The notes beneath the pieces were generated by a model. That model was given only the letters and a program-made list of their open reading frames with translations. It ran no database searches and was not told where the DNA came from. Shown piece by piece: positions 8,007 to 61,369 of a stretch of DNA of 64,000 nucleotides (the stretch's first letter is position 1; the number at the start of each line of letters is the position of its first letter). This stretch comes from an uncultured Bacteroidales bacterium (lineage in GTDB: Bacteria; Bacteroidota; Bacteroidia; Bacteroidales; Bacteroidaceae). A program made the position numbers and the translations under genes. The stretch is taken from NCBI GenBank assembly GCA_902802265.1, contig CADCLN010000009.1, forward strand, positions 1-64,000, written 5' to 3'.

Positions 8007-8396
8007 TTAAGATTGCAAACGGGTATTAATACTATTATTTATTTTATTTCTCTGAGTTATAATTGTTTTTGTTATTATTTTCAACAACTGAAGACATTCG
8101 TCGTGAAGGCTATAAAGTTTGTTCGGATCCACTATATTACTTTCCATTACCAATTCAATCCAATGAAGAGTTTCGTCCAATTCTTCTTCTACCATTTTTA
8201 ATTTGTTAAGAAAATCACGATCAGATTTACCTAAACAAGCTGCGCGATAATTTGCAGAGGGGGATGTACCTGAACGAATTAACTGATTAGCTATTGCATT
8301 AGAAGAACGTGTTCTGGGCATCTCATCAACAAGACGGATAATCCTTAATGCAAAATTTTTAAATCTAACCCTTAATTCTTCTTTATCCATTGACAT
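8007..8396 (-). CDS. Four-helix-bundle protein (IVP/Avd-like)
   Basis: This 129-residue protein matches the four helix bundle family first seen in 23S rRNA intervening sequences and related to the Avd accessory proteins of retroelements. Typical features are an N-terminal helix ending in VDEMPRT, the SGTSPSANYRAACLGKS segment and later helices such as EEELDETLHWIELV. It interrupts an otherwise tight run between pheT and yebC and is bracketed by inverted heptamer arrays at 7944-7975 and 8403-8434. That suggests it arrived as a small unit. The cellular role of stand-alone members is not established. Confidence 0.85.
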   Translation of the reverse strand: MSMDKEELRVRFKNFALRIIRLVDEMPRTRSSNAIANQLIRSGTSPSANYRAACLGKSDRDFLNKLKMVEEELDETLHWIELVMESNIVDPNKLYSLHDECLQLLKIITKTIITQRNKINNSINTRLQS

Positions 8397-45265: not shown

Positions 45266-47749
45266 TTAATTCTCCTGTTCCAGATATCTGTCAATCAAGG
45301 CTGTGATGTCCGTAATGGTGACGGAACCATCGTTTTGCAGATATTGGTCAATCAAAGCCGTAATCTGTTCCACAGTCACTCGCGCATGACCAGGATTTAC
45401 GCCGTCGTCCGACAGGAAGATTTCCTTCACATACAAGGCTGTGCTACCGTCCGAAGTGAAGGCTGCATAGAAAAGATGGCTGAGGTCAAGCGCCTTTCCG
45501 TCAGTCTTTTTCAGTTCATGCAGGTTGAAGGAAACCTCCTTCTTTTTGCTAAGGTCGCAGGCGGCATAGGCAGCCTGTGTGTTGTCCTGGTCGTAGAGAC
45601 GCAAGGAGGAAGCATTCGGGGCACTTCTCAGGAATTTGATGACAAGGAAGTTGTAGTCGGAGAAGTCTGCGCCTGCAGCGTAATACCAGCCACCCAGTCC
45701 GTTCTTTGCCGTCTTTACCATACCCGTGCGCTCAGCAAACTGTCCCTGGCCAGAAATGGAGGGATTGAAATAACCAGGTTTCACCAGGAAGTGGTCTGTC
45801 TTCACATGGAAGGAGACTTGCTCTGTGTTGCCTTGCTGGTCCGTATAGGTGGCAACGACGTCGGTTTCACCCGCCTGCAGCGCCCTGATGCGTCCGCCCT
45901 CCACGCTGACTACGCGGTCATTGGCAATGTCGTAGCGGCACTGTGAAGCCACGTTCCACGTCATGCCCGACTGTGCCGTGCAGGTCACGTCAAGGGGCTG
46001 CATCGTGCCCACCAGCATTGTGTAATCGGTCGTAGCCATCGCCAGCGACGTCATGGTCAGGTCTGCTTCGGTGTAGGCTTCCAAGGGGTCGGGTATGCCG
46101 AACATTTCCTCCGTGAACTTCTGTTCGGTGGTGAACCAGTCAAAGTCCACATATCCACCCAGTTGCTTTGTGGCATAGTTGAAGAGGTAGAAGCGCTGCC
46201 CCACAAAGTAGTCGAGCGTGTAGCCCATCCTCATCGTGATGCCCCAGGCCGTCCAGTTCGTATTGTTGTAGCTGTAGTAGTAGCGGCACTGGTTGGAACC
46301 GAAGTTGACGAAGGCACGCAGATAGATTTCGTCGGATTTCAGTTCGGGTCCTTTCTGGGTTTCCTCCTTTTTCAGTTTCTGGCTGTTGAAGGTGCAACGC
46401 TCTGCATAGAGGTATTTCTTGCCGTCAATCACTTTCACGCCGATGAAGGAATAGGGATTCTGGAACACGGCAATACCAGCCACGTCGCCCTCCTGCATGT
46501 GGGAGAGATCCATCTTCACGGTGCCATACGAGTTCTTGTAACGTCCCTCGGACGTGCCCACAGGCGAATAGCCCAAGATGCGCTGCGTCAGCGAGTTGTG
46601 CGCCGTATTGAGTTCGTCTGTCACGTTGGCTGTGTAGAGGCGCAGATAGCCCAGGCGGTCTGTCAGCGACCAGGCAGAGTTGTCGGGGTTGTGGTTCCAC
46701 TCCCACTGCAAGCCCAGTTTCTGGTCTGTAAAGGCGTCATTCGTAGCCAGGTAAGTCTTGTCGTAGGTCTGCCCCACGTTGGGCTTGGGATAGGCTTTTC
46801 CGTCTTTCGACACATCGATGCCGTTGTTGCCGATGATGGGCCATCCGTCTTTCCATTCCACAGGCTCCAGGTAGGGAATACGTCCGATGGCACCTGCATC
46901 CTTGAAGAGCATGGTCCACCACTCGCCCGTCTGGGTTTCGATGAGTGCTCCCTGGTGAATTTTCTGGTTGGCAAACACACGTCCCTCATGCTCCACGTAG
47001 GGTCCCATGGGGTTTTTGGAACGGAAGATGGTCTGCGAACCCTCTGTACCGCCGTAAGTGGCATAGATGTAGTAGTAGTCGCCAATGTGATACATGTGGC
47101 TGCCTTCACAGCCGTTGCCCACACTGATGACACGTTTATCTTCTATCTTCCTCAGCGTCTTGGCATTGAGCTTGTTCACCCAGATGTCGCCGATTCCGCA
47201 AGCCACATAGAGGTAGCCGTCGCCGTTAGGTCCGTCGTCGAAGAGCCAGCCCGAATCGTAGTAGTGCTCGTTCATCTTCGTCATGGTCCACTCCCCTTCT
47301 GGGTCGGTAGCCGTCAGCAGGATGTTCTGCGTATCGTCGATGCCGGAGCGTCCGTAGCAGATGAAGTAGATGTAGAATTTGCCCTGATAATAGTTGAGCG
47401 AAGCCGCCCACTGTCCCTGCGAATAATGCCACCAGCCGTTCTTCAGATTGTAGGCATCGTTGTCGTCAATCATCTTCAGCGGATTGGCGCAATACTCCCA
47501 GTTCACCAGGTCTTTCGACTTCAGAAGGGTTGCCCCAGGGAAGTGGTACATCGTCGTGGAGACCATGTAGTAAGTGTCTTCCACCCGAATCACGTCGATG
47601 TCGGGAAAGTCGCCGTTGATGACCGGATTGATATACGTTCCGTCACCCTTGTCTGCCGACCACACTTGTTTGTACTGATTTGCCTGAGCCGAAGCTCCCA
47701 ACGAGGCGACACCCATCAAGAGTGCCAATAGAAAGCGAAATTTCTTCAT
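45266..47749 (-). CDS. GH43 beta-xylosidase/arabinofuranosidase with dockerin-like tail
   Basis: This 827-residue exported enzyme has a signal peptide (MKKFRFLLALLMGVASLGASAQ) and a GH43 five-bladed propeller at about 35-330. The catalytic residues are visible: the aspartate base in GDFPDIDVI, the second aspartate in LFDDGPNGDGYLY and the acid glutamate in GCEGSHMYHIGDYYY. A GH43 C-terminal concanavalin-like domain follows (about 345-560), then an Ig-like segment and a ligand-binding-like module. Two dockerin-like repeats (VTVEQITALIDQYL, VTITDITALIDRYL) end the protein. It probably cleaves arabinose or xylose side chains. Confidence 0.9.
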   Translation of the reverse strand: MKKFRFLLALLMGVASLGASAQANQYKQVWSADKGDGTYINPVINGDFPDIDVIRVEDTYYMVSTTMYHFPGATLLKSKDLVNWEYCANPLKMIDDNDAYNLKNGWWHYSQGQWAASLNYYQGKFYIYFICYGRSGIDDTQNILLTATDPEGEWTMTKMNEHYYDSGWLFDDGPNGDGYLYVACGIGDIWVNKLNAKTLRKIEDKRVISVGNGCEGSHMYHIGDYYYIYATYGGTEGSQTIFRSKNPMGPYVEHEGRVFANQKIHQGALIETQTGEWWTMLFKDAGAIGRIPYLEPVEWKDGWPIIGNNGIDVSKDGKAYPKPNVGQTYDKTYLATNDAFTDQKLGLQWEWNHNPDNSAWSLTDRLGYLRLYTANVTDELNTAHNSLTQRILGYSPVGTSEGRYKNSYGTVKMDLSHMQEGDVAGIAVFQNPYSFIGVKVIDGKKYLYAERCTFNSQKLKKEETQKGPELKSDEIYLRAFVNFGSNQCRYYYSYNNTNWTAWGITMRMGYTLDYFVGQRFYLFNYATKQLGGYVDFDWFTTEQKFTEEMFGIPDPLEAYTEADLTMTSLAMATTDYTMLVGTMQPLDVTCTAQSGMTWNVASQCRYDIANDRVVSVEGGRIRALQAGETDVVATYTDQQGNTEQVSFHVKTDHFLVKPGYFNPSISGQGQFAERTGMVKTAKNGLGGWYYAAGADFSDYNFLVIKFLRSAPNASSLRLYDQDNTQAAYAACDLSKKKEVSFNLHELKKTDGKALDLSHLFYAAFTSDGSTALYVKEIFLSDDGVNPGHARVTVEQITALIDQYLQNDGSVTITDITALIDRYLEQEN

Positions 47750-47780
47750 TGTTTGTAATGCAGTTAAAATTTATCTGCTG

Positions 47781-47788
47781 CAAAATTA
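47781..47788 (-). promoter_or_regulatory. GH43 promoter -7 box (TAATTTTG)
   Basis: The minus strand reads TAATTTTG followed by CAGCAG, 32 bases upstream of the GH43 start. The repeat array at 47849-48024 starts about 60 bases further upstream. Confidence 0.55.
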
Positions 47789-47848
47789 CGAACTTCCCCC
47801 GTCACACGCTTTCTTCTTTGATACACATCTTTGCTTTTTTGATTCCCG

Positions 47849-48024
47849 CTGGCACAGTTCTCCCACTTCCGTGGCACTGCATTGCCGCCAACGTGGGAGA
47901 ACTATGCTACGGCGGTGGGAGAACTATGCTACGGCGGTGGCAATGCAGTGCCACCCAAGTGGCATAACTATGCGACGGAAGTAGGAAAACTTTGCTACCA
48001 AAGTGGAAATGCGGTTCCAGGCTC
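47849..48024. repeat. 22-bp tandem repeats, locus 3
   Basis: Eight consecutive 22-bp units run in exact phase. Units 3 and 4 (47893-47936) are identical. Most units begin GTGG; several are near-perfect inverted repeats such as GTGGCAATGCAGTGCCAC. Read on the minus strand, the GTGGGAGAACT units give AGTTCTCCCAC, matching locus 2. The array ends about 100 bases upstream of the GH43 start. Shorter 11-bp units follow at 48030-48062. Confidence 0.9.
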
Positions 48025-48029
48025 CCCAC

Positions 48030-48062
48030 CCTGGAACCGACGTGGAACCGACGTGGAACCGC
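48030..48062. repeat. 11-bp half-unit repeats (CGTGGAACCGA)
   Basis: Three 11-bp units follow the 22-bp array with half its period. The same GTGGAACCG word recurs at 48214-48240, and its inverted form GGTTCCACGG occurs at 48132-48141, which can pair with 48223-48232. The rest of 48063-48296 is AT-rich without a credible gene. Confidence 0.7.
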
Positions 48063-48296
48063 ACCTAAAAATTTAATAAAATGTATTTATTAATTGAAAA
48101 TCTGTATATTATTATTACCACTCTCATAAGCGGTTCCACGGTACCAGCGAAAATGGTAAAAATTGAGGGGTATAAAAAATAAAAAAGTTTTTTTTAGAAA
48201 GGAAGTAGGATTTCCGCTGGAACCGTGGAACCGTGGAACTTTTTTTGAGCGTATGCAGATGTAGCGAACATCATTTGCCTTTAAGTTGATTACCAT

Positions 48297-48342
48297 GCAA
48301 AAAAGCCTTTCGCCTGTGGGGGAGGTGCAGGCGAAAGGCTTT
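48297..48342 (-). terminator. Strong terminator of the FISUMP run
   Basis: A perfect 15-base stem (48302-48316 with 48328-48342) and an 11-base loop are followed on the minus strand by a run of T. It lies about 55 bases past the stop of the last FISUMP gene. Confidence 0.9.
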
Positions 48343-48396
48343 GGGGTATTGCGCGTCCTTGCCCGTAAAGGGAAGGGATGCACTAACTTCTTGGAA

Positions 48397-49155
48397 CTAC
48401 GGACAGACAGCGCGCACAGGGTGACCGGCGCAGCGACTGTGGCCGGCGCCCCAATCCAATCCAGACGAAGAGAAGGACAGTATTAAGGCGCTTTCATTAA
48501 AGTATTGGAAGAGCGTACTCGACCAGTAGAAAGCAAATTCGTCCAGAACGACGAGTCTGTTGCCCGAGTAGAAGCCTGCAGCAGGCAGGAAGATGGAATT
48601 ACCATTCGGACCTGTCACCTTCTCCCCGATTACACCATTCTGAGTTGTCCATTCCCAACTACAATTATCCTTGAGTTCTTCCATTTCATTAATGGTTGGC
48701 ATACGCCATGTGCCGCCCCAGTTCGCATGGGCTGCGTCATCTTCAAGGTCAAGGACTGTCTTGTTGTCAATGGTGCCGTAATCGCTGCTGGTGCAATACT
48801 TGGTCATAATATCCCATGTGCCGTTGCACCATTTATAGGTTTCCCAATTGTAATCTGTCTTTGATTCAGTTTCGCCCCAGGCAAAGTAATCACCACACTC
48901 TTCGGGGGCATTTGCACCCACGTTCATGGTTGCCCACTTCACGCTGAGCCCTAAATCCACATATTCGTGACTGTCGTCGCCACCACCATTAAAATACTCT
49001 TTTTCGCCTGTCAAATAGCCATTGATAAGCAGGGTGATGTCATCCACATCCAAATCGCCGTTGTGGTTCAAGTCACCGTTGATGGTTTGTGCCTTGACCG
49101 CTGTGGTCAGCACGGTTGCTGCAAGAAGCAGCAGGGCAGAAAAAATCTTTTTCAT
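48397..49155 (-). CDS. FISUMP-domain protein, single domain
   Basis: This 252-residue exported protein has a signal (MKKIFSALLLLAATVLTTAVKAQ) and then a dockerin-like EF-hand segment (GDLNHNGDLDVDDITLLIN). One FISUMP domain (Fibrobacter succinogenes major paralogous domain) follows at about 65-252, starting HEYVDLGLSVKWATMNVGAN and ending VRAVCP. The C-terminal 55 residues after LPAAG diverge sharply from the neighbouring paralogues, while the framework YWSSTL and VRAVCP is kept. It is the third and shortest of three tandem paralogues. The ligand is unknown. Confidence 0.85.
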   Translation of the reverse strand: MKKIFSALLLLAATVLTTAVKAQTINGDLNHNGDLDVDDITLLINGYLTGEKEYFNGGGDDSHEYVDLGLSVKWATMNVGANAPEECGDYFAWGETESKTDYNWETYKWCNGTWDIMTKYCTSSDYGTIDNKTVLDLEDDAAHANWGGTWRMPTINEMEELKDNCSWEWTTQNGVIGEKVTGPNGNSIFLPAAGFYSGNRLVVLDEFAFYWSSTLFQYFNESALILSFSSSGLDWGAGHSRCAGHPVRAVCP

Positions 49156-49266
49156 GTTGTCGTATAGTTTTTAGATGAATAAATAGTTGTACTTGTTTTT
49201 GTTTTCCACGCTGCAAAGTAAGCGTTTATTTCAGGAATGCACCAATTTGGCTAACGCTAATTGAGA

Positions 49267-50736
49267 CTACGGGCAGACAGGACGAACACATCGACCTCTG
49301 CATCGGCTGCCGGTGCGATAGTCGATGTAGATAGCCCAGTCGCTTATGCGCCAGATATACGAAAAAGTCATGTACCACGCCATGGACGATTCGAAGCCTC
49401 CGAGCGAATTGGTCCAGTATTCTCCATCATACGAATCTATAAGACCAAGCGTCTCACTGTAGTAGAAATGTGTTGCGGGCAGGAAGATGGAGCGACCATT
49501 GGGACCTGTCACGACAAAGCCCCCTATGCCGTTCTGCGTAGTCCATGTCCATGTGCATTTATTTTTCAGTTCGTTCACTTCGAGAGGGGTAGGCATACGC
49601 CATGTGTCGCCCCAATGGACACTGGCTGCATCGTCTTCTGAGTCGAGAGTGGTCTTGCCGTCCACGATGCCAGTGCTGGAATCATTGTTGTATTTGATGA
49701 GCTGGTTTTCTGTACCCCATTGATAGGTGTCCCAGTCGTATGTGTCCTTAGGCTGGGTTTCGCCCCAGGCGAGGTAGTAGCCATAGTCCTCAGGCGACGT
49801 GGCTCCGACATTCATGGTTGCCCACTTCACAGAGAGTCCGAGGTCAACGGCTTCGTGGGGCGGTTCGATACGTTCTGCTTCGCCAGTCAAATAGTCATTG
49901 ATCAGCAGGGTGATGTCATCCACATCCAAATCGCCGTTGTGGTTCAAGTCGCCGTTGATGGTTTGTACCTGGAGTGGGCAAACAGCGCGCACAGAGCGAC
50001 CGATGTAACGGTTGACGTCGCCCCAGCCCATACCCTCCAAAAAGAAGTCCAGGTTGGAGGCGTTGACGTCATAGTCCACGCTAAGTGAATTCAACCAGTA
50101 GCCCCCATAGGAGCCAGCGTCTTCGAGGTTGTTGTACCAACGGTTGCCAGCGGCAGGCAGGAAGATGGAATTACCATTCGGACCTGTCACCTTCTGACCG
50201 TTCACACCATTCTGAATTGTCCACTCCCAGCTACAATCAAATAAAAGTTCTTCTATTTCATCAATGGTTGGCATACGCCATGTGCCGCCCCAATTCACAT
50301 GGGCTGCGTCATCTTCAAGGTCAAGGACTTTCTTGTTGTCAACGGTGCCGTAACCGCCGCTGGCGCAATACTTGGTCAGGGTATTTTCTGAGCTGTTGTA
50401 CCATTTGTAGGTTTCCCGATTGTAATCTGTCTTTGATTCAGTTTCGCCCCAGGCAAAGTAGTCACCATACTCTTCGGGAGCGTTGGCGCCCACGTTCATG
50501 GTTGCCCACATCACGCTGAGACCCAAATCAACGGCTTCGTGACTGTCGTCTTCATTGGATTCATCATTAGTGAAATACTCCTTTTCGCCAGTCAAATAGC
50601 TATTGATCAGCAGGGTGATGTCATCCACATCCAAGTCGCCGTTGTGGTTCAGGTCACCGTTGATGGTTTGTGCCTGTACCGCTGTGGTCAGCACGGTTGC
50701 TGCAAGGAGCAGCAGGGCAGAAAAAATCTTCTTCAT
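49267..50736 (-). CDS. FISUMP protein with two dockerin-FISUMP units
   Basis: This 489-residue exported protein has a signal peptide nearly identical to that of the 48397 gene. Two successive dockerin-like plus FISUMP units follow (about 24-255 and 256-489). The first ends RSVRAVCP, the second RCVRPVCP. The second domain is the most diverged of the five in this cluster and has a longer insert before its end (WRISDWAIYIDYRTGSR). The start lies 48 bases after the stop of the 50785 gene. Its upstream sequence matches those of the other paralogues. Confidence 0.85.
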   Translation of the reverse strand: MKKIFSALLLLAATVLTTAVQAQTINGDLNHNGDLDVDDITLLINSYLTGEKEYFTNDESNEDDSHEAVDLGLSVMWATMNVGANAPEEYGDYFAWGETESKTDYNRETYKWYNSSENTLTKYCASGGYGTVDNKKVLDLEDDAAHVNWGGTWRMPTIDEIEELLFDCSWEWTIQNGVNGQKVTGPNGNSIFLPAAGNRWYNNLEDAGSYGGYWLNSLSVDYDVNASNLDFFLEGMGWGDVNRYIGRSVRAVCPLQVQTINGDLNHNGDLDVDDITLLINDYLTGEAERIEPPHEAVDLGLSVKWATMNVGATSPEDYGYYLAWGETQPKDTYDWDTYQWGTENQLIKYNNDSSTGIVDGKTTLDSEDDAASVHWGDTWRMPTPLEVNELKNKCTWTWTTQNGIGGFVVTGPNGRSIFLPATHFYYSETLGLIDSYDGEYWTNSLGGFESSMAWYMTFSYIWRISDWAIYIDYRTGSRCRGRCVRPVCP

Positions 50737-50784
50737 GTTGTCGTATAGATTTTAGATGAATCATATAGCTAACGCTAATTGGAG

Positions 50785-52242
50785 TTACGGGCAGACAGCA
50801 CGCACAGAGTAACCTCGGCAGCGGTTGTTGTGGTCGAAACTGTCCGGACCGCCCGAATTGAAGTTCAGGTCGTAGGCGTCGGTGTCGCGAGTCGGGCTGA
50901 GCGAATTCAACCAATAGAATCCGTTGTCGCCCGCACTGTCGAGGCTGCCGTCCAAGCGACCGCCAGCAGCAGGCAGGAAGATGAAGTTACCGCTGGGCCC
51001 TGTCACCTTCTGGCCGCTCACACCATTCTGAGTTGTCCACTCCCAGCTACAAAGATAGACAAGAGCATCTATTTCTTCTTTGGTTGGCATACGCCATGTG
51101 CCGCCCCAATTCGCTTGGGCTGCGTCATCTGCGAGTTCAAGCACGGTCTTGTTGTCAACGGTGCCAAACCTTAAAGCGGTGCAGTACTTGGTCTGGGTTC
51201 TTTGTGAACCGTTACACCATTTATAGGTTGACCAATTGTATATGTCCTTCGGTTCGGTTTCGCCCCAGGCAAAGTAGTCACCATACTCTTCGGAAGCGTT
51301 GGCACCCACGTTCATGGTTGCCCAATTCACGCTGAGACCCAGGTCCACATATTCGTAACCGTTGTTACTGCCACCACCATCAATAAAATACTCTTTATTG
51401 CCCGTCAAATAGTTATTGATAAGTAGGGTGATGTCATCCACATCCAAATCGCCGTTGTGGTTCAAGTCACCATTGATGGTTAGTGCCTTGTACGGCCAGA
51501 CAGCTCGCACAGAGAGACCGGCGAAGCGGTAGTAGCCGAGGCTGCGCACACCGTCCGAATCGATGACCAGGTTGCTGGCGTGGCCGTCGATGTTCGAGCC
51601 GAGTGTACTCGACCAGTATTGCCCGTAGTTGCCCGCGTAGTTGAGGTTGTCGCCCCAGCGGAGACCAGCGGCAGGCAGGAAGATGGAGTTGCCATTCGGA
51701 CCTGTCACCTTCTGGCCGTTCACACCATTCAAGGTAGTCCACTCCCAGCTACAATTATTTATAAGTTCTTCTATTTCAAAAACGGCCGGCATACGCCAAC
51801 TGCTGCCCCAATTCATGTTGGCTGCGTCATCTTTATAGTAAAGGAATATCATGTCGTCAACGGTACCATAGTCTGAATCGGTGCAATATTTGGTCAAGGT
51901 ATTTTCTGAGCCGTTACACCATTTATAGGTTGACCAACCGTAATCTGTCTTTGGCACAGTCTCGCCCCAGGCAAAGTAGTCTCCATAATCTTCGGGGGCT
52001 TTGGCACCCACGTTCATCGTTGCCCACATCACGCTGAGACCCAGGTCCACATATTCGTGACCGCTGTTGCCACCATTAACATACTCTTTGTCGCCTGTCA
52101 AATAGCCATTGATCAGCAGGGTAATGTCTTCCACATCCAAATCGCCGGTGTGGTTCAGGTCGCCGTTGATGGTTCGTGCCTGTACCGCCCCACTCAACAC
52201 GATGGCTGCAAGCAGCAGCAGGGCAGAAAAAATCCTTTTCAT
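50785..52242 (-). CDS. FISUMP protein with two dockerin-FISUMP units, first of three
   Basis: This 485-residue exported protein (signal MKRIFSALLLLAAIVLSGAVQA) has two dockerin-like plus FISUMP units (about 25-250 and 251-485), ending SVRAVWP and SVRAVCP. It is the promoter-proximal gene of the tandem set. The sequence just upstream of its start is nearly the same as that upstream of the 48397 gene (the ACGCTGCAAAGTAAGCG stretch near 52275 and 49207), evidence of duplication. Variable codons before each C-terminus are mostly of NNC type. It is likely a surface ligand-binding protein. Confidence 0.85.
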   Translation of the reverse strand: MKRIFSALLLLAAIVLSGAVQARTINGDLNHTGDLDVEDITLLINGYLTGDKEYVNGGNSGHEYVDLGLSVMWATMNVGAKAPEDYGDYFAWGETVPKTDYGWSTYKWCNGSENTLTKYCTDSDYGTVDDMIFLYYKDDAANMNWGSSWRMPAVFEIEELINNCSWEWTTLNGVNGQKVTGPNGNSIFLPAAGLRWGDNLNYAGNYGQYWSSTLGSNIDGHASNLVIDSDGVRSLGYYRFAGLSVRAVWPYKALTINGDLNHNGDLDVDDITLLINNYLTGNKEYFIDGGGSNNGYEYVDLGLSVNWATMNVGANASEEYGDYFAWGETEPKDIYNWSTYKWCNGSQRTQTKYCTALRFGTVDNKTVLELADDAAQANWGGTWRMPTKEEIDALVYLCSWEWTTQNGVSGQKVTGPSGNFIFLPAAGGRLDGSLDSAGDNGFYWLNSLSPTRDTDAYDLNFNSGGPDSFDHNNRCRGYSVRAVCP

Positions 52243-52417
52243 GTTGTTGTATAGTTTTTAGATGAATAAATATTCCACGCTGCAAAGTAAGCGTTTATTT
52301 CGGAACAAAACAAATAAAATGCAGGAAAAAACAATGGCAAGCAGGTTTTTGCAAAGGTTGATACAAGATTTCATCCGTTTGTTACACCCGTGACATTCGG
52401 CTTCAAAAGAGAATTCC

Positions 52418-52425
52418 TACCTTTG
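52418..52425 (+). promoter_or_regulatory. GH53 promoter -7 box (TACCTTTG)
   Basis: TACCTTTG followed by CA lies 37 bases upstream of the GH53 start. The possible -33 element is the weak TTCG at 52396-52399. Confidence 0.6.
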
Positions 52426-52462
52426 CAACAAAATTCTTAAAACTTTTCAAAAAAAACGAACA

Positions 52463-54340
52463 ATGAAACAACTGTTACTAATGCTGTTGACGGGATGGGC
52501 TGCTCTGAGTGCCCATGCCATCACCGTGACCGACACGATTTTCAATCGCTACGAACACGAAGAATTTGCTTTCGGGGCAGACGTGAGTTTTGTGCCCATG
52601 ATGGAAAGCTGGGGTACAAAGTGGCTTGACAAGAATGGCAAGCAGAAAGACATTTTGCAAATATTGAAAGAGCAAGGCATCAATAATATCCGTCTGCGCG
52701 TGTGGACGGTAGCCTCTGGTGCCAGCAGCAAGCAGGAAGTGATCAATATGTGCAAACGTGCCAAGGCAAAAGGCATGGGGGTGATGATTGATTTCCACTA
52801 CAGCGACACATGGGCCGACCCAGGCAATCAGACTATTCCCTCGGCATGGACAGACCACAGCGTGGATGCGTTGGCTAAAAATGTCTATGACCACACTTAC
52901 GACGTGCTCTCGGCCATCAAGGCGGCAGGTGTGGTACCTAAATGGGTACAGGTGGGCAACGAGACGAAACGCGGAATGCTCTACCCTGTGGGTCAGACCA
53001 ACAAGGGCGGGTCTGCGGCTTTTGCCAAGTTTGTGCTTAATGGCTACAATGCTGTAAAAGCTGTGGATTCAACGATGCAGGTCATTGTCCATCTGCCCGA
53101 CGGACATGACAACTCGCTCTACCGCAGCATCTTCGACGGACTGAAAAAGAACGGAGCGAAGTGGGACATCATCGGCCTGTCGGCCTATCCCCGCTGGTCA
53201 CACCTTGACGGACCGACGATGATTACTCGTGTGATGGCCAACATCAAAGATCTAAAGAGCCGCTACAACACACCTTGCATGGTTGTGGAGACAGGCCACT
53301 ATCCCAACAAGGCTGTTGAGGGCAACCAGTACCTTGTAGGCGTGATGAACAGCATGATCAAGAATGGCGACTTGGGCTGCTTCTACTGGGAACCCGAGTC
53401 GATGGGAGGCTACGACATGGGGGCTTGGGACGAGGCCACAAAGAAGCCTACCGTGATGATGGATGCCTTTCTGGGCGTGAAGCATACCGAGGTTTCGTGG
53501 ATGATGAAGGTCAAGATGCAGTCGCCCACAGCCGAGCAGACCGTTGAGGTCAACAACCTTGAACTGCAAGCCCGAGTGCAACACCAGCGCAAAGGCCGCA
53601 TCCGGTCTGTGGAATTTTACCTTGACAAGCGAAAGCTGGGCACCTATAAAGTGGAAGACCCCTCCACAGTAGGCACGATAGTCACCGTCCCCTTCAAAGT
53701 GCCCGATGCTTCTATTGGCATACACACCACCTGGGCAAAAGCATCCGACAACATAAAAAACACTCAAACCACTGACACCGTGACCTTTTATGTTGGAGAA
53801 TCATCTTTGTTTAATCAAGGAATCGTGGAGAATGGTGACAAGAAAGGTGGAGTGGTCCGTTGGAATATTGCTTTTGAAACAGCGGGCAAATATCGTCTGG
53901 CCATCAGATACAACAGCCCCTCCCTTCGTGGCACAGAAGTGAGAATAGGTGGCGACAGCATTACCAGAACATATTTTTACAAGAATGCCGATGCTTACCA
54001 GACCATTGACATTGAGACCTCAAAAGTGGGCAATCAGGTGCTGCAACTAACTGCCACCAGCAACTCGGGACTGCCTGAGATTACCTCTTTGCGCATTTTT
54101 CCGCTCGAAGGTCAGACTTTGCCCACACAGGCTGAAGATGTCACAGGCATAGGGGGGCCGTCTGCTTATGACGAAAGTGACGGGAAAGTAGATGTTTACA
54201 GTCTGTCCGGTGTGCTGCTCTATGAAACCACTCAGTCGGCATTGGGCATATCGCTGGACGACAAATCTTCTGCCGTTGTGGTCTTGCCAAACTGGGTGGG
54301 TGGTACACCGTACATTGTGCGGAAACAGCGACTAAAATAA
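52463..54340 (+). CDS. GH53 endo-beta-1,4-galactanase
   Basis: This 625-residue exported enzyme has a signal ending near LSAHA and a GH53 TIM barrel at about 35-345. It begins FAFGADVSFVPMMESWG-like and has the acid/base glutamate in VQVGNETKRGML and the nucleophile in MVVETGHY. GH53 enzymes cut beta-1,4-galactan of pectic arabinogalactan. The C-terminal part has an Ig-like segment (about 350-450) and a carbohydrate-binding-like beta-sandwich (about 455-555). The last 109 bases overlap antisense with the regulator gene at 54232. Confidence 0.93.
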   Translation: MKQLLLMLLTGWAALSAHAITVTDTIFNRYEHEEFAFGADVSFVPMMESWGTKWLDKNGKQKDILQILKEQGINNIRLRVWTVASGASSKQEVINMCKRAKAKGMGVMIDFHYSDTWADPGNQTIPSAWTDHSVDALAKNVYDHTYDVLSAIKAAGVVPKWVQVGNETKRGMLYPVGQTNKGGSAAFAKFVLNGYNAVKAVDSTMQVIVHLPDGHDNSLYRSIFDGLKKNGAKWDIIGLSAYPRWSHLDGPTMITRVMANIKDLKSRYNTPCMVVETGHYPNKAVEGNQYLVGVMNSMIKNGDLGCFYWEPESMGGYDMGAWDEATKKPTVMMDAFLGVKHTEVSWMMKVKMQSPTAEQTVEVNNLELQARVQHQRKGRIRSVEFYLDKRKLGTYKVEDPSTVGTIVTVPFKVPDASIGIHTTWAKASDNIKNTQTTDTVTFYVGESSLFNQGIVENGDKKGGVVRWNIAFETAGKYRLAIRYNSPSLRGTEVRIGGDSITRTYFYKNADAYQTIDIETSKVGNQVLQLTATSNSGLPEITSLRIFPLEGQTLPTQAEDVTGIGGPSAYDESDGKVDVYSLSGVLLYETTQSALGISLDDKSSAVVVLPNWVGGTPYIVRKQRLK

Positions 54341-55974
54341 CTGACAGAGGAAAAGCCTGTGTCGTAACTCACCTCTGTGACGGTGTGGCGTCCCTGGCGC
54401 AACAGTTCGGCAGCACGACGCAGACGGATGGTGCGAATGAACTCGGTAGGCTTTTGGCCCGTTGCCGACTGTATCTTGCGGTAGAAAGTCATGCGACTCA
54501 TACACATATCGCTGCTCAGCTGCTCTACGCTATAGCCATCGTCAGCGATGTGCTGTTCGACTACAGCAATGGCTTTTTGTAGCCATTCGTCAGTCATGAC
54601 AGGCTGGTCTTCGTCAGGCAAATCCATGACAGGCGCTTCTTGTTTCATGGCGGCAAGGAATCGTTGCCTTTGTCGGTGCAGGAACCAGATGTGAACAACA
54701 AGGGTGATTAACACAATAAACAATATCGACAGCATCCACCAAACCCAACTGGGCATACGTTCCTGCACCGTTTGTTCGGGCTGGCTCCAATGCTCACCAG
54801 GGCGGGTCTCCTGCAATTCGATGCAATAGATTCCTTCATCCTCCACGTTTTGCTGACGAAGTGTATGGCGCACAGGGTCATAAATGCGCACATAGCGGTC
54901 ACAAGCGATGACAATCCGCCCCATACTGTCTGCCTGCAGAGCCACAACAGCATCTCCGTACTCATTGGAAGCATAGTCGTCGGTCGTAAGTTTTCCGTCC
55001 TGATAGGTCATGACAGTACCGAAGATAGTGGCGAGCCACAGAGTGCCATCGTCCGTAAAAGTCATAGCCGACACATCTTTTGTATCGGGCAGTACCACCA
55101 CTTCTTCTTTGCCCATCTCCATGCACCGGATGTCCTTGCCCGTGCTGAACCACAGATCTCCCCTGGCATTTTCGGTCAAAGCTGTAGGACGGGCTGACAG
55201 TCCGCGGGCCATGCGTACAGAGTCGGCTATGAATCGCGTCAGAACGTTGCCGCTGAACCACGGCTTCGGGTCATTGCTACTCAAGGCGTAGCATTTTCCC
55301 CAACCGTCGGCCACCAGCTGACGCCCTTGACGGTCGGTCATAACGCGAATGAAGTTAACGCTGTCAGGCCACTCTGTCGTAACCTGCACAAGCCGTCCAT
55401 TGTCAAGCCGCAATTGCCCTCCTTCCCATTCTGTGCCCCACAGCCGTCCTTGCTGATCCTCATGCAACCGAAAGATGTACTTATCACCTCCGGCATAAGT
55501 GTTCAACAGAAGACCATCAGCATCATACTCATAGACTTTCTTGTTCGCTGTCATCCACCAATGACCGTTGCGGCTGACGATGATATCATCGACCCGTTTG
55601 TCGTCCACATCTTCCAGCCGACGGATGCTGTAGTCACGCTTGTCGAGAACGTAAGCTCCATGAAACGTCCCTATTATGATATACCGTCCCGCGGCCTCAG
55701 CCACGCAAGCCACATCGTTGCTGCCCAACAAATCGGGATGCTCTGCATCACTTCGGAACACGGTTATCTGCCTGCCGTCGTCACGACATAGCCCTCCACC
55801 CTCAGTGGCATACCACAGGAAGCCTTCAGAGTCTTGTATCACCTGCAACACTTGCTGCGATGACAACTGCTCTTGACGCGGCAGCGACAGCTGATGCCAC
55901 TCTTGCGCCCAGCACAGAAGCGGTAGCAACAGGATTAAAAGCAAGGGGTATCTATTGTATTTCATTATTGTCAT
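54232..55974 (-). CDS. Membrane-tethered propeller-AraC regulator
   Basis: This 580-residue protein has a signal peptide (ending LLCWAQ) and a periplasmic propeller-like region of Reg_prop type at about 30-390 (DSEGFLWYATEGGGL, DQQGRLWGTEWEGG, NARGDLWFSTGKDI, DDGTLWLATIFGT). One transmembrane helix lies near 410-432 (WVWWMLSILFIVLITLVVHIW) and a cytoplasmic AraC helix-turn-helix domain near 470-565. Histidine kinase, ATPase, receiver and Y_Y_Y domains are absent, unlike classical hybrid two-component systems. It probably senses pectin-derived sugars and controls adjacent genes. An ATG three codons in (55965) is also possible. Confidence 0.85.
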   Translation of the reverse strand: MTIMKYNRYPLLLILLLPLLCWAQEWHQLSLPRQEQLSSQQVLQVIQDSEGFLWYATEGGGLCRDDGRQITVFRSDAEHPDLLGSNDVACVAEAAGRYIIIGTFHGAYVLDKRDYSIRRLEDVDDKRVDDIIVSRNGHWWMTANKKVYEYDADGLLLNTYAGGDKYIFRLHEDQQGRLWGTEWEGGQLRLDNGRLVQVTTEWPDSVNFIRVMTDRQGRQLVADGWGKCYALSSNDPKPWFSGNVLTRFIADSVRMARGLSARPTALTENARGDLWFSTGKDIRCMEMGKEEVVVLPDTKDVSAMTFTDDGTLWLATIFGTVMTYQDGKLTTDDYASNEYGDAVVALQADSMGRIVIACDRYVRIYDPVRHTLRQQNVEDEGIYCIELQETRPGEHWSQPEQTVQERMPSWVWWMLSILFIVLITLVVHIWFLHRQRQRFLAAMKQEAPVMDLPDEDQPVMTDEWLQKAIAVVEQHIADDGYSVEQLSSDMCMSRMTFYRKIQSATGQKPTEFIRTIRLRRAAELLRQGRHTVTEVSYDTGFSSVSYFSRCFRTMYGVPPTQFGKTTTAEDLSSSDMPNAD

Positions 55975-55989
55975 TTTTCAAAATCGCCA

Positions 55990-55997
55990 CAAAGTTA
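55990..55997 (-). promoter_or_regulatory. Regulator promoter -7 box (TAACTTTG)
   Basis: The minus strand reads TAACTTTG, 15 bases upstream of the ATG at 55974. The implied leader is only about 9 bases from that ATG, or 18 from the ATG at 55965. Confidence 0.5.
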
Positions 55998-56051
55998 CAT
56001 AATTTCATTGATAAGTTACATGAATGAAACTACATTTTTAATCATTTTTCG

Positions 56052-56059
56052 TACCTTTG
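56052..56059 (+). promoter_or_regulatory. Esterase-GH51-GH43 operon promoter -7 box
   Basis: TACCTTTG followed by CA lies 57 bases upstream of the double-esterase start and matches TAnnTTTG. It is divergent from the regulator promoter 55 bases away, so the regulator could control both from the shared interval. Confidence 0.6.
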
Positions 56060-56116
56060 CACCACATATTTAATGAAAAGACAAAAAAACAAATAACCAT
56101 TTAAACATACAAAACA

Positions 56117-57757
56117 ATGAAACAATTACTAACTATGACCTTACTGCTCCTGTTCACACTATCAGCTGAGGCGCAGACGGAGCGACAAATCACAGTAACA
56201 GAAAACATTGCTTACCGCACGGACGTGGGACCGAGTACGGTGCTCGACCTGGCTCAGCCCATGTTTGGACCGCAGAAAAACAGACCTGCCATCCTCATCA
56301 TTCACGGCGGAGGATGGAGTGCAGGATCGAAGAACGACATGGTCTATCGCACGCTGATGATTGACTATGCCCTGAAGGGATATGTTGTATGCAACATGAA
56401 CTACCGACTGATGCAGGAGGCTGAGCCGCCTGCTTGCATTGAAGATGTACGCTGCGCAATCCGCTGGATGAAGGCTAATGCTCAGAAACTGGGCATCGAC
56501 CCGCAGCGCATCGGCACCTACGGTCACTCGGCAGGCGGACACCTGTCGCTGATGGCTGGCGTGTCGGCTGAGAGCAAGGCATTCAACGATGCTGCCGACC
56601 CGTGGAAACAATACGACTGCTCGGTAGCATGTGCCGCCGGCGGTGCACCTCCCACAGAATTGGGACGGGCAGGCATCCCCTGGGGCGACCGCAAGGAGTT
56701 CTGGCCCATCGGCTATATCGGCAAGAGCGCAACGCCTTTCCTCGTATTGCAAGGCGGCGAAGACCCCGTTGTGAAACCGAACCTCACAGAGGACTGGGTG
56801 ACAAAGATGCAACGGGCAGGCGCATCGGTTGATTACGTGAAAGTACACGGTCAGCACGGTGTGGCCTTCGACCAGCAGCTGGAATTCACTCGTCCTGCTC
56901 TTGATGCTTTCTTTGCACGATACCTGAAGCACGAAGACCCTACTGTCAGCTTCGAGCAGATGAAGGTGGTTGAATACGGTGGCAGCGGTCGCCAAAAGGC
57001 AGTGGCTGTACGCGAGAAGAATCTGCCCGATTTTGTGGTCTATCGCCCCATGAACATGGATGCCGCCGCTCGCGGAATGAGACGGCTACCCGTTCTGGTC
57101 TTTTGCAACGGTGGCTGTATGGACACCAGCATCGGCTATGAGAATATGCTCAGCGACATTGCTTCCTACGGCTACGTGGTTGTCGCCATCGGCGAACTGC
57201 AGATGTTTGCCCAGCACGAGAAGGACCAACACACTCCGTCGTCAATGGTAAAGAAAGCACTCGATTGGATCAGCCAGCAGGCCACCGACCCAGCTTCAGC
57301 ATATTATAACAAGATAGACCCCGACCGCATCGCTGCCGCTGGTCACTCTTGCGGCGGGGCACAGGTGCTGGCCAATGCTGCCGACGCACGGCTGAAGACC
57401 TACATTATCTTGAACGCTGGCATGGGCAAAATGACAATGGCCGATGCCGACGCAAAGTCGCTGAAAAACCTGCATGGTCCCATCCTCTACCTCGTGGGTG
57501 GCACATCGGACGTTGCCTGGCAGAATGCACAGATGGACTATAAGGCCATCAAGAAAGTGCCCGCAGTATTGGCCGACAATACGCAGAGTGGTCACGGAGG
57601 TACTTATGAACAGCCCAACGGTGGAGCGAATGCCCGCATGGTACGTGCCTGGCTCGACTGGCAGTTAAAGGGACAAAAAGACAACGAAAAACTTTTCATC
57701 GGCGGTGACCTCACAGACTACGACGGCTTTACCATCCAACACAAGAATTTCAAATAA
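56117..57757 (+). CDS. Double-domain alpha/beta-hydrolase esterase
   Basis: This 546-residue exported protein (signal ending SAEAQ) contains two alpha/beta-hydrolase domains in tandem. The first (about 25-275) is of the hormone-sensitive-lipase type with HGGGW, nucleophile motif GHSAGG, aspartate in GGEDPVV and histidine in GQHGVAF. The second (about 285-535) has nucleophile motif GHSCGG, aspartate in GGTSDVAW and histidine in SGHGGTY. Such enzymes remove acetyl or feruloyl groups from plant glycans. It starts an operon with GH51 and GH43. Confidence 0.88.
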   Translation: MKQLLTMTLLLLFTLSAEAQTERQITVTENIAYRTDVGPSTVLDLAQPMFGPQKNRPAILIIHGGGWSAGSKNDMVYRTLMIDYALKGYVVCNMNYRLMQEAEPPACIEDVRCAIRWMKANAQKLGIDPQRIGTYGHSAGGHLSLMAGVSAESKAFNDAADPWKQYDCSVACAAGGAPPTELGRAGIPWGDRKEFWPIGYIGKSATPFLVLQGGEDPVVKPNLTEDWVTKMQRAGASVDYVKVHGQHGVAFDQQLEFTRPALDAFFARYLKHEDPTVSFEQMKVVEYGGSGRQKAVAVREKNLPDFVVYRPMNMDAAARGMRRLPVLVFCNGGCMDTSIGYENMLSDIASYGYVVVAIGELQMFAQHEKDQHTPSSMVKKALDWISQQATDPASAYYNKIDPDRIAAAGHSCGGAQVLANAADARLKTYIILNAGMGKMTMADADAKSLKNLHGPILYLVGGTSDVAWQNAQMDYKAIKKVPAVLADNTQSGHGGTYEQPNGGANARMVRAWLDWQLKGQKDNEKLFIGGDLTDYDGFTIQHKNFK

Positions 57758-57771
57758 AATCATCTTAAAAT

Positions 57772-60303
57772 ATGAAGCTACTTTTTACTTCAGTATTGCT
57801 ACTGACAAGTGTGTTCTACACATCGGCTCAGACAGAGCCTATCCGCATTGACCTTAACCAAAAAGGAGCCGTGGTATCGCCCAATCTCTATGGCATTTTC
57901 TTCGAGGAGATTAGTCATGCCGGCGACGGTGGTCTCTATGCCGAATTAGTGCAAAACCGTGGTTTCGAAGAGCACGTGCTGCCTTCTGGCATGACTTACA
58001 AGGACGGAAAGGCTTATGCGCCTGATGCCATGAACTACGAGCACAGAAGAAACCGTAATTGGAACACTCCTTGGAACTTAGACGAAAAGAAAATGACGGG
58101 TTGGCGCGTAACAGGCGAAAAAGCTACTGTCACAGGCGAAGTCATAGAAACAAAGACGCCATTACACAAGAATACGCCACATGCCATGCAGCTCAACATT
58201 AAAAATGTGCAAAAGAACGGAAAGGCGGTACTAACAAATACCGGCTACTGGGGCATAGGACTGAAGGTGGGCGAGAAATATGATTTGCGCTTCTATGTGA
58301 AGTCAACCAACTATAAAGGCAACATCACCGCCCGACTGGTAAACGGAAAGACGGGAGTAACTCTTGGCTCAGCGAATTTCACCAACCGACCACTGAAGGA
58401 CTGGACGGAATTAACGGCTACGCTGACCGCTGAGGGCACGACTGACAAGGGTGAACTTGCACTGGATTTTGACAAAACAGGAACAGTACTTGTTGACTAC
58501 GTGTCGCTCTTCCCGCAAGCTACCTTCAAAGGGCGCAAGAACGGTCAGCGAGCCGATGTGGCGCAGATGCTGGTCGATTTGCATCCGAAATTCATGCGCT
58601 GGCCTGGCGGTTGCATTGTTGAAGGAGCCACGTATGAGAACCGTGTGAAATGGAAAGAAACGCTGGGCGACCCGATGACTCGCCGTGGAGAATGGGATGT
58701 CTGGGGCTATCGAGCCACATGGGGCATGGGGTATCATGAGTTCCTGCAATTTTGTGAAGACCTCGGTATGGATGCCATGTTCGTCAACAATGCCGGCATG
58801 TCGTGCTCCGTGCGCAACGGCGACTTTGTGAGCAGCGAGGCCGACATGAATGCTGTCATTCAGGACTTCCGCGATGCCATAGATTATGCCTTGGCTGACC
58901 CCGCCAAGAACAAATGGGCCAAGATGCGTGCTGATGCTGGACATACGAAACCGTTCCCTCTGAAGTACGTGGAGATTGGTAATGAGAATGTGGGGCCTGA
59001 GTATGTCACCCACTTCAACTATATCTTCAAGCAGCTGAAAGCCGAATATCCACAAATCACATTCATCAATACGCTCGGTCACACAGACCCACTACTGTCA
59101 CAAATTCCTGGTGACTACATGGTGGACCCTCACTGGTATCGCGATCCCAACTTTTTCTTTGCCAACAACCATCTCTTTGATGATGCGCCGCGCACTCACG
59201 ACATTTATGTGGGCGAATATGCCTGCAACGGCGGTGTGGGAGCTGGCAACCTGTTGGCTGCACTCAGCGAGGCTGCTTTTATCATGGGCATGGAACGCAA
59301 CAGCAACGTGGTGAAGATGACATCGTATGCACCGCTTTTTGAAAACGAAAATCGTCGTGACTGGCCTTGCAACCTCATCCATATCAACAGTTCTGAAGTA
59401 TATGGTCGTGCTTCCTACTACGTACAGCAGATGGCCGCAGAGAACCGTCCCACTTATAATATATATGTGAGCGAAACTACCACAGCAGCTCCTGCACAAC
59501 CTTTTGCAGCAGGAGGAATTGGACTGGGCAGCTATGCCACACAATGTGAGTATAAGGATATCTACGTGACTACCTCTGACGGAAAGAAATCTCACTATCA
59601 ACCCAACCAACTTACCACTCAACGTGGAAAGTGGGAGACAGAAGGAGATTTGCTCCGCCAAACATCCGATGAGCGCGTGTCGCTCGCCATGCTGCCATCC
59701 ATCAGCAGTGATAACTACACGCTCAGTTTGAAAGCACGCAAGACAGGAGGACTGGAGGGATTCTTTATATTCTATTCTCTTGATGGCAACGGGCGTAACG
59801 GCTACGGTGTGAATATTGGTGGATGGAATAACCAAACCACAGCTGTGCAGCCGATGCGCAATGGACGACTGACAGACGTGGTAAGTCCACGTGTCCGCCA
59901 ACGTATTGAAACCGACAGATGGTATGATGTTCGGTTGGTGGTTACTCCAATGTCTGCCACGCTTTTTGTCGATAACAAAGAAGTCACCGTCGCCAAACCC
60001 GCTGAGCCGACCCGTCACTTTTGTCAGACAGGCTATGACGAAACGACCTCAGAACTCGTCATTAAAGTGGTCAACGGCACCGAGCAACCCTATCGCCGCT
60101 CGTTCATGATTGATGGCTCCAAAAATGTCATGCCAACAGGCAAGGTCATCACCCTATGCGGCAATGCACAAGATGAAAATACTTTCGAACAGCCCACGAA
60201 GCTTGCACCGCAAACAACTCTCTTCGGCAAGTTTGGCAAACAATTTGATTATGAATTTGCCCCCATGTCGTTCACTATCATGCGGGTAAAAGTAGAGAAG
60301 TAA
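57772..60303 (+). CDS. GH51 alpha-L-arabinofuranosidase
   Basis: This 843-residue exported enzyme (signal ending YTSAQ) begins with the GH51 strand PNLYGIFFEEISHAGDGGLYAELVQNRGFE. A CBM4/9-like module is inserted at about 95-240. The TIM barrel has the acid/base glutamate in EIGNENVGPEY and the nucleophile in VGEYACNGGVG. Within the C-terminal beta-domain lies a laminin-G/concanavalin-like insert (about 610-745). It releases arabinose from arabinan and arabinogalactan. It starts 14 bases after the esterase gene. Confidence 0.94.
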   Translation: MKLLFTSVLLLTSVFYTSAQTEPIRIDLNQKGAVVSPNLYGIFFEEISHAGDGGLYAELVQNRGFEEHVLPSGMTYKDGKAYAPDAMNYEHRRNRNWNTPWNLDEKKMTGWRVTGEKATVTGEVIETKTPLHKNTPHAMQLNIKNVQKNGKAVLTNTGYWGIGLKVGEKYDLRFYVKSTNYKGNITARLVNGKTGVTLGSANFTNRPLKDWTELTATLTAEGTTDKGELALDFDKTGTVLVDYVSLFPQATFKGRKNGQRADVAQMLVDLHPKFMRWPGGCIVEGATYENRVKWKETLGDPMTRRGEWDVWGYRATWGMGYHEFLQFCEDLGMDAMFVNNAGMSCSVRNGDFVSSEADMNAVIQDFRDAIDYALADPAKNKWAKMRADAGHTKPFPLKYVEIGNENVGPEYVTHFNYIFKQLKAEYPQITFINTLGHTDPLLSQIPGDYMVDPHWYRDPNFFFANNHLFDDAPRTHDIYVGEYACNGGVGAGNLLAALSEAAFIMGMERNSNVVKMTSYAPLFENENRRDWPCNLIHINSSEVYGRASYYVQQMAAENRPTYNIYVSETTTAAPAQPFAAGGIGLGSYATQCEYKDIYVTTSDGKKSHYQPNQLTTQRGKWETEGDLLRQTSDERVSLAMLPSISSDNYTLSLKARKTGGLEGFFIFYSLDGNGRNGYGVNIGGWNNQTTAVQPMRNGRLTDVVSPRVRQRIETDRWYDVRLVVTPMSATLFVDNKEVTVAKPAEPTRHFCQTGYDETTSELVIKVVNGTEQPYRRSFMIDGSKNVMPTGKVITLCGNAQDENTFEQPTKLAPQTTLFGKFGKQFDYEFAPMSFTIMRVKVEK

Positions 60304-60334
60304 CCAAAAACTCATCAAATAAACATAAAGAAAC

Positions 60335-61369
60335 ATGACACACAAAATTCTTTTCACATTGGCATTCGGGACAATATGCTTGAATAGTGCCGCACAGGGA
60401 CCACGCCGAAATTTTCAGCGCGAGGCATTCACTACAGATAGACCTATGGTTCACGACCCCGTAATGGCCAAAGACGGGGACACGTATTACCTCTATGCCA
60501 CAGGCATGGGCATTCAGCAGATGATGTCGAAAGACCGCAAAACATGGACGGTGCTACCGCAACCCGTAATGACGGTCATACCTGGGTGGACCACAGACTC
60601 TGTGCCTGGCTTTGGCAACCATGTCTGGGCACCAGATGTCATCCAGTGGCATGGTCGCTGGTGGCTGGCCTATAGCTGTTCTACTTTCGGACGAAACGGA
60701 TCAGCCATCGGTCTGCTCAGCAGTCGCTCACTGCGCTCCAATATGTGGAAAGATGAGGGGTGCATCGTGACTTCACGTGAAAAACGTGACAACTGGAATG
60801 CTATTGACCCGAACTTCGTCATTGATGATTCGGATACACCGTGGTTGGTCTGGGGCTCATTCTGGGATGGTATCCAACTGGCTCGCCTCGACTCCACCAT
60901 GCACATAGCCCCAGGCGAAAAACCTCGTACCATTGCCCGTCGATACGATCCTAATTACAAGCCTACAGAACCGAATCCTACATCAAAATATGCTGGCACA
61001 AATGCCATTGAGGCACCATTCATCTTCAAGCACGACGGTTACTATTACCTCTTTGTATCATGGGACTACTGCTGCCGTGGGGCCAAAAGTAACTACCGCG
61101 TTGCTGTGGGACGCAGCAAGACTGTTGAAGGTCCTTACCTTGACCGCAATAACAAGGATATGGCCAATGGAGGAGGCACACTTTTCATAGAGGGTGATAA
61201 AAAAGAATGGGAAGCAGCAGGTCATTGTGCTGCCTACACTTTCGATGGAAACGACATCTTCATTTGCCATGGTTACAGCGCCACACAAAATGGTGCAGCA
61301 TTACTTATCCAACGTCCCATTTCATGGATTTCTGACGGATGGCCTGAACTAAAACCATCAGACCGTTAA
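60335..61369 (+). CDS. GH43 endo-arabinanase-like enzyme
   Basis: This 344-residue exported enzyme has a single GH43 propeller: aspartate base in MVHDPVM, pKa-modulating aspartate in NAIDPNFVI, glutamate acid in TNAIEAPFIF, and the blades WAPDVIQWHGRWWLAYSCS and YYYLFVSWDYCCRG. This pattern fits the endo-1,5-alpha-L-arabinanase branch, which cuts the arabinan backbone. It is the third gene of the esterase-GH51-GH43 operon, 31 bases after GH51. The signal peptide ends near NSAAQ. Confidence 0.92.
   Translation: MTHKILFTLAFGTICLNSAAQGPRRNFQREAFTTDRPMVHDPVMAKDGDTYYLYATGMGIQQMMSKDRKTWTVLPQPVMTVIPGWTTDSVPGFGNHVWAPDVIQWHGRWWLAYSCSTFGRNGSAIGLLSSRSLRSNMWKDEGCIVTSREKRDNWNAIDPNFVIDDSDTPWLVWGSFWDGIQLARLDSTMHIAPGEKPRTIARRYDPNYKPTEPNPTSKYAGTNAIEAPFIFKHDGYYYLFVSWDYCCRGAKSNYRVAVGRSKTVEGPYLDRNNKDMANGGGTLFIEGDKKEWEAAGHCAAYTFDGNDIFICHGYSATQNGAALLIQRPISWISDGWPELKPSDR

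Follow-up and report, generated by a model that had tools for sequence, protein, structure and literature searches.

Probable former targets of a diversity-generating retroelement in a tandem array of secreted-looking genes from an uncultured Bacteroidales bacterium

Three consecutive minus-strand genes (g1, g2 and g3) in a 64,000-nucleotide stretch from an uncultured Bacteroidales gut bacterium, here called the window, are very probably former variable-region (VR) targets of a diversity-generating retroelement (DGR), and the codon pattern at the ends of their domains is best read as the footprint of such an element. The window lies on contig C9 of assembly G000 (2.88 Mb, 63 contigs, 85.65% complete). 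The genes encode five Lcl_C/FISUMP-like domains, one in g1 and two each in g2 (g2a, g2b) and g3 (g3a, g3b). The DNA of G000 shows the footprint, VR backbones that copies have in common, hairpins, and stumps of an accessory gene, and relatives supply templates that match as well as intact cassettes. We consider that the targets are probably orphaned: neither a reverse transcriptase (RT) nor a template repeat (TR), both parts of a complete DGR, was found in G000.

The initial annotation had described nearly identical DNA up to the LPAAG codons followed by abrupt divergence. The jump past LPAAG was confirmed, but near identity was too strong a statement: over 384-390 aligned upstream bases, g1 and g2a differed by 13%, the other pairs among g1, g2a, g3a and g3b by 20-23%, and pairs including g2b by 36-37%. 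Beyond this point fixed codons (CTC, GCG-GGC, TAC-TGG, CTG) interleave with codons mostly ending in C. This alternation, also part of the initial annotation, was clearest in g2a, g3a and g3b; g2b showed no significant footprint. At codons differing at the first or second base in the three pairs of g2a, g3a and g3b, the third base was kept in 27/31, 21/29 and 28/34 cases in the tail, and in 24/33, 14/31 and 18/35 cases upstream. We then scored retention of the third C at changed template-AAC codons, with codon usage matched for amino acid as the null: it was kept at 12/13 codons in g3a (p=5e-5), 10/12 in g2a (5.5e-4), 10/11 in g3b (1e-3) and 10/15 in g1 (7e-3). Changes at template adenines, as defined by foreign templates, were observed in the variable regions of g1, g2a, g3a and g3b, which differ from one another at 50-62% of these positions (A sites).

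Paralogous Lcl_C/FISUMP-like domains number dozens in G000. One window domain used as query gave 73 matches, 44 of them at E<=1e-20, the weaker ones being largely short dockerin-like pieces; at the same threshold two other genomes of the genus, G014 and G025, gave 19 and 14 matches, and 32 of 45 genus genomes at least one. Alignment of 42 G000 domain ends showed that 22, on 14 contigs, retained the third C at changed AAC codons beyond codon usage (p<0.01). This comparison covered 15 columns in which at least 6 of 11 real templates read AAC, with the codon usage of the G000 upstream halves as null. The 22 copies, which are not mutually independent, include g1, g2a, g3a and g3b, while the other 20, among them g2b, miss the threshold. 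Pooled retention was 380/558 in G000, 116/204 in G014 and 92/180 in controls from other genus genomes, a contrast that is modest alone. The controls came from 20 fetched stretches: 14 domains were kept and 7 without the start motif, all IFIP-type, were dropped. Since 5 of the 14 carry the footprint themselves under G000 codon usage, we used the controls to give a range, not a null. Left out of the counts were two duplicates cut by locus ends, a C17 fragment seen in two loci, a G014 copy on its contig C66 without the motif, a G014 frame corresponding to the template, and copies matched only in part, short of the domain end.

The same pattern appeared column by column. In a tight group of ten closely matching G000 ends, picked by eye for the entropy and template-column comparisons, the 42 high-entropy columns split 24/16/2 over codon positions 1/2/3, and A was the consensus in just 5 of 118 low-entropy columns; together, these are the pattern left by a template with mutable adenines. 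Over 36 ends, third bases were specific to the column, with T in column 49 (80%) and C in columns 47 and 51 (75% and 80%). On our reading of the codon tables, no fewer than two template classes appear to have been active in G000.

We inferred a template from G000 alone by filling the variable columns with A. It matched DNA directly upstream of DGR RTs in other Bacteroidales at 78-80% over about 176 bases (loci L135, L128, L131 and L127); the neighbouring variable regions of those loci, where matched, scored lower (67-74%). Each of the four templates carries A at 36/48 variable columns and at 8-20/138 conserved columns. Across all 11 templates, at loci drawn from 27 relatives of the G014 RT in one genome scan, A occupies 32-36 of 46-48 variable and 8-20 of 130-138 conserved columns. 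Adenine-directed DGR mutagenesis, in the past or in trans, had been proposed initially, and the 36/48 columns at which foreign templates carry A bear this out.

Support also comes from an intact cassette of the same genus on a related target gene. In G014 (JAFTEV010000027.1, Bacteroidaceae RGIG3754, from roe deer abomasum; L111/L126) a target with dockerin-like, Big_2 and Lcl_C parts is followed by a hairpin, a MutS_I-like gene (MSL), the template and the RT; the accessory gene of the present DGR type is MutS_I-like. This target resembles those of G000 in its dockerin-like start, Lcl_C end, hairpin and MSL, and its Big_2 domain recurs in several G000 targets but not in the window genes; G014 has template and RT, whereas G000 has only targets and MSL stumps. 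All 22 TR-VR differences in G014 lie at template A, and similar specificity was found in other DGRs of the genus: G044 22/22, G013 18/18, G039 16/17 and G012 11/12. Compared with their own template, 16 G014 copies ranged from 0/135 non-A changes (C104, C33) to more than half changed. A second VR on a separate contig showed 20/48 A and 0/135 non-A changes, and the presence of such unchanged backbones on two contigs argues for action in trans. At template-A sites the order of bases was A>G>T>C in both genomes: two G014 regions had replacements G 27, T 12 and C 3, while eleven fresh G000 regions had G 127, T 76 and C 17. The DGRs at L115, L116 and L121 (G012, G013, G039) are A-specific and have RTs more distant from that of G014, within the same genus.

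If copies had been rewritten from a common template, their backbones should be alike while their A sites differ. Fifteen G000 pairs show at most 9% non-A difference, and in 14 of them the A sites differ at 29-60% and the upstream DNA at 13-46%, with backbones differing by 2-9%. For instance, L011 (C17) and L043 (C23) differ at 148/354 upstream, 7/105 VR non-A and 24/45 A positions, and L018 and L022 at 64/381, 3/130 and 23/56. A sites were taken here from the foreign template L131, so adenines of the own template elsewhere were counted as non-A. The low-backbone signal is confined to a fresh minority of copies and does not extend to most pairs. Copies read as fresh include those on C17, C33, C46, C26 and C31. 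Fresh-looking variable regions were also seen at L174, L187, L188 and L190 (G010, G025, G036, G021), with third C kept at 13/13, 10/10, 12/14 and 12/13 codons; no full-length match to a G014-type RT was found in these four genomes.

Hairpins tend to accompany the fresh copies. Counting inverted repeats whose arms reach 13 bp or more, we found one after 13/18 fresh terminal copies and after 2/16 other terminal copies (Fisher p 6e-4); the count excludes seven internal copies and one truncated at a contig end. Arms are 13-30 bp long, loops 9-37 nt (some with an inner stem), and the repeats start 50-80 nt from the variable region. In eight hairpins from G000, G014 and G025, chosen as clear cases and therefore a test of covariation but not of frequency, 18/34 stem pairs were changed on both sides with pairing kept. 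Judged from these alignments, it is the structure and not the sequence of the hairpin that is kept. Some of the repeats may double as terminators. The hairpin after g1, a reduced form of that seen after the dispersed variable regions, falls outside the span first annotated (48397..52242). According to Guo 2011 (PMC3240598), the target-site hairpin of phage BPP-1 likewise depends on stem structure, whereas its stem sequence may vary. In BPP-1 as in G000 the inverted repeat lies just past the variable region; the phage DGRs described there have 7-10 bp stems and 4 nt GRNA loops 4-34 bp away, in contrast with the longer and more distant hairpins of the G000 type.

Several observations weigh against the DGR interpretation. 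In the window, g2b shows no significant footprint (7/15, p 0.22). Non-A divergence among g1, g2a, g3a and g3b (18-34%) is similar to or higher than upstream divergence (13-23%), g3a-g3b being the only pair with a slightly lower value (0.185 vs 0.23), so that a reading of the window alone would be weak. Among the window copies only g1 is followed by a hairpin: none is found after g2b or g3b, and the internal g2a and g3a also lack one. Genome-wide, non-A divergence falls below half the upstream divergence in just 28/861 G000 pairs. Taken alone, an excess of A over non-A mismatches is in part a product of structural constraint on the invariant codons, and copies without third-base retention show it too. 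Finally, in the 85.65% complete assembly, RVT_1 gave no match at E<=0.001 and an RT profile none at E<=1, and a TR pattern (<=3 mismatches) matched just g3a and one place on C22, with no template.

Concerning the window itself, a reading compatible with the DGR-target interpretation, to which we give very nearly an even chance, is that its copies were never rewritten in place: domains already diversified elsewhere would have recombined into the array. The internal position of g2a and g3a and the single hairpin at g1 suit it, as does the pair g1-g2a, in which the upstream DNA differs by 13% but VR non-A positions by 34%. On the other side, A-site differences of 50-68% in all window pairs imply that each unit went through diversification of its own at some point. 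Between the end of g2b and that of a copy on C1 (L040) there are just 5/56 differences at A and 6/130 at non-A sites, compared with 55/195 upstream, a likeness suggestive of plain gene conversion. An internal stop interrupts the C1 copy.

The initial annotation reported neither RT nor template in the window, and our searches found none in the whole of G000 by profile, pattern or BLAST. At 1e-59 or better, the RT profile recovered the three genomes it was built from as well as G042 and G013, neither of which contributed to it. The C22 pattern match lies in an ordinary open coding frame. When the inferred template was compared with G000 by BLAST, 18 of 63 candidates were scored and all 18 fell at domain copies. 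An AAC-rich probe found an AAC repeat on C15 alone, which was rejected as a template; the same probe misses the templates of G008 and G044. A truncated copy at the end of C17 was also rejected, being a near duplicate of a C6 variable region. The two near-identical VR ends concerned, C17:106191-106333 and C6:234-413, lie at two contig ends and are possibly one locus split by assembly.

Nevertheless, remnants of the machinery remain. On C23, behind a target whose variable region is fresh, come a hairpin and the first 35 MSL residues (66% identical to G014), where MSL breaks off. On C19, 12 MSL residues and a stop come after a target that has no significant footprint. G002 (97% complete) carries a frameshifted MSL fragment behind a target gene (L228, C106, 1648-1888) and gave no RT match in the profile search. 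In G025 (93% complete, 8% contamination) MSL residues 1-74 are fused to RT residues 347-389 (L227, C22 of that genome, 1615-1970), an internal deletion that retains target gene and hairpin. These stumps and truncated cassettes, as sequenced, favour loss of the machinery, and with the backbone evidence they favour a past or unassembled DGR over none, even though the proposed check for an RT and template of its own found neither in the assembly.

The stumps may also ride along with target duplication, and contig ends come within about 600 bases of several domain copies (C6, C33, C26, C19, C17, C49), so an unassembled cassette is possible. An alternative, which we hold to be possible if somewhat doubtful, is a DGR still active in trans, its template and RT encoded in the missing ~14% of the genome, on a mobile element, or on a short contig that lies between repeats and was left unbinned. 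The incompleteness of the assembly and the copies at contig ends, where repeats break assemblies, leave room for it; so do the backbones of the freshest pairs, differing by just 3/130, and the G014 VR on a second contig with its 0/135 non-A changes. IMG/VR holds 18 relatives of the G014 RT, 12 of them at 52-57% identity, and MSL is matched in 11 of these 12, in most of which a template-like stretch precedes the RT; phage and plasmid records matching this RT were all below 60% identity. Opposed to continuing activity are the two MSL stumps of G000, the frameshifted MSL of G002 without RT match and the MSL-RT deletion of G025, and viral contigs gave no exact match to the MSL or downstream DNA of G000. 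Two viral contigs, L210 (a distant domain relative) and L243 (a 19-base match), were uninformative.

Ordinary paralogue divergence, with diversifying selection on lectin-like surface loops and a framework held by gene conversion, is very improbable: invariant W, G, L, R and V codons have the look of a structural core, g2b/L040 (the fifteenth low-backbone pair) seems to be a case of plain conversion and 20/42 G000 copies fit plain divergence, but gene conversion would carry A sites along with the backbone and thus fails for the 14 other pairs, third bases are held to the base of their own column (T in 49, C in 47 and 51), and the inferred template matches real ones.

In the DGR mechanism that we favour, an AAC-rich template RNA would be copied by an error-prone RT that alters template adenines, and the cDNA would replace the last ~60 codons of the C-type-lectin-like domains, guided by the hairpin beyond the gene, which may direct homing in G000 also. 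Repeated cycles together with gene duplication could have yielded dozens of dispersed secreted proteins with differing binding surfaces on one scaffold. The window copies appear aged: they would have been rewritten long ago and then drifted, recombination may have helped build the tandem array, and its proteins may bind variable ligands. Template and RT would have been lost from the lineage or lie outside the assembly. More broadly, and as a tentative proposal somewhat short of an even chance, MSL-type cassettes may enter the genus, rewrite many targets in trans via shared hairpins and lose template and RT by deletion, leaving in three genomes or more (G000, G002, G025) an orphan repertoire open to renewed rewriting should another template and RT arrive.

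Comparable systems are known. As tabled in Ye 2014 (PMC4159848), DUF1566 (Lcl_C) and Fib_succ_major are DGR variable proteins in human microbiomes, and Big_2 and FGE-sulfatase are listed too. Those targets belong to the same or related families and are diversified at the C-terminal end, as in G000; as that survey presents them they were found with RTs, whereas the G000 targets are dispersed, with RT and template not found. One G000 protein (L034:2361-4670, C5) combines two Lcl_C-like domains, Big_2 and an FGE-sulfatase domain, the last being another known kind of DGR target. Multiple and trans-acting targets are described in PMC10907252 and PMC3521204. In Dore 2024 (PMC10907252), Thiohalocapsa PB-PSB1 has 15 targets and 21 VRs, with nine DGR loci, some incomplete, and action in trans; it shares with G000 the many targets per genome, but its targets are tied there to defence/conflict systems whereas those of G000 are secreted-looking. 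The highest VR counts that we found for comparison were 21, in that genome and in one gene described in PMC6642488. If a trans-acting element persists, G000 would be among the larger single-genome target sets. A literature search gave no description of many dispersed orphan targets with repeated element truncation in one genus, which does not imply absence from print. RT-first surveys would miss such targets; backbone and third-base tests find them without an RT or template of their own. G000 holds element remnants and variable regions that grade from fresh into decayed, and so makes the DGR life cycle (spread in trans, loss, decay) testable.

The features of the window are listed in Table 1. 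Each of the five units consists of a short segment, which we take to be dockerin-like, and a domain of about 200 residues preceded by a TINGDLNHNGDLDV-like sequence; read by eye, the three proteins have signal-peptide-like starts. Pfam gave no match for the dockerin-like segments at E<=0.001. Five domains in three genes were found as first annotated, but the FISUMP label did not hold at family level: FISUMP/Fib_succ_major (PF09603) had no Pfam match in the window proteins at E<=0.001, and Lcl_C/DUF1566 (PF07603) scored 31.8, 32.2 and 34.8 bits, just under the cut-off of 34.9. No family was listed in PHROGs (g3 searched) or NCBIfam (g1-g3 searched), and a PDB sequence search gave no match at E<=0.01. 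By analogy with the target families tabled in PMC4159848, the domain probably adopts a C-type-lectin-like fold.

Table 1. Coordinates of the target genes and associated features in the window
Feature	Coordinates	Strand	Remarks
g1	48397..49155	-	252 aa; secreted-looking; dockerin-like segment and one Lcl_C/FISUMP-like domain
g2	49267..50736	-	489 aa; secreted-looking; two dockerin-like + Lcl_C/FISUMP-like units (g2a, g2b)
g3	50785..52242	-	485 aa; secreted-looking; two dockerin-like + Lcl_C/FISUMP-like units (g3a, g3b)
Variable region of g1	48400..48594	-	appears aged; non-A divergence 30-34% from g2a, g3a, g3b
Variable region of g2a	49975..50166	-	internal; no hairpin after it
g2b end	49270..49488	-	divergent copy; footprint not significant (7/15, p 0.22)
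Variable region of g3a	51493..51684	-	internal; no hairpin after it
Variable region of g3b	50788..50982	-	no hairpin after it
GTGCATCC	48376..48383	-	begins at base 17 past the g1 variable region; equal spacing after several dispersed variable regions
Hairpin 3' of g1 variable region	48302..48342	-	15 bp stem, 11 nt loop; DNA fold z -8.45
Dockerin-like segment TINGDLNHNGDLDVDDITLLINGYLTG of g1	49006..49086	-	other copies start at 49962, 50667, 51480 and 52173

A four-helix-bundle gene some 40 kb away (8007-8396), followed up as an Avd-like lead, encodes a 23S_rRNA_IVP protein and was dropped; it looks unrelated, as the initial annotation had allowed. The target genes are flanked by a GH43 gene and a GH53 gene, with regulator, esterase, arabinofuranosidase and GH43 genes close by. 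The targets are enclosed by a cluster for arabinan/galactan-type degradation at positions 45266-61369, with two GH43 genes and genes for GH53, an arabinofuranosidase, an esterase and an AraC-type regulator. In the GH43 gene at 45266-47749, the terminal repeats look, on visual inspection, similar to the dockerin-like segment found in the targets.

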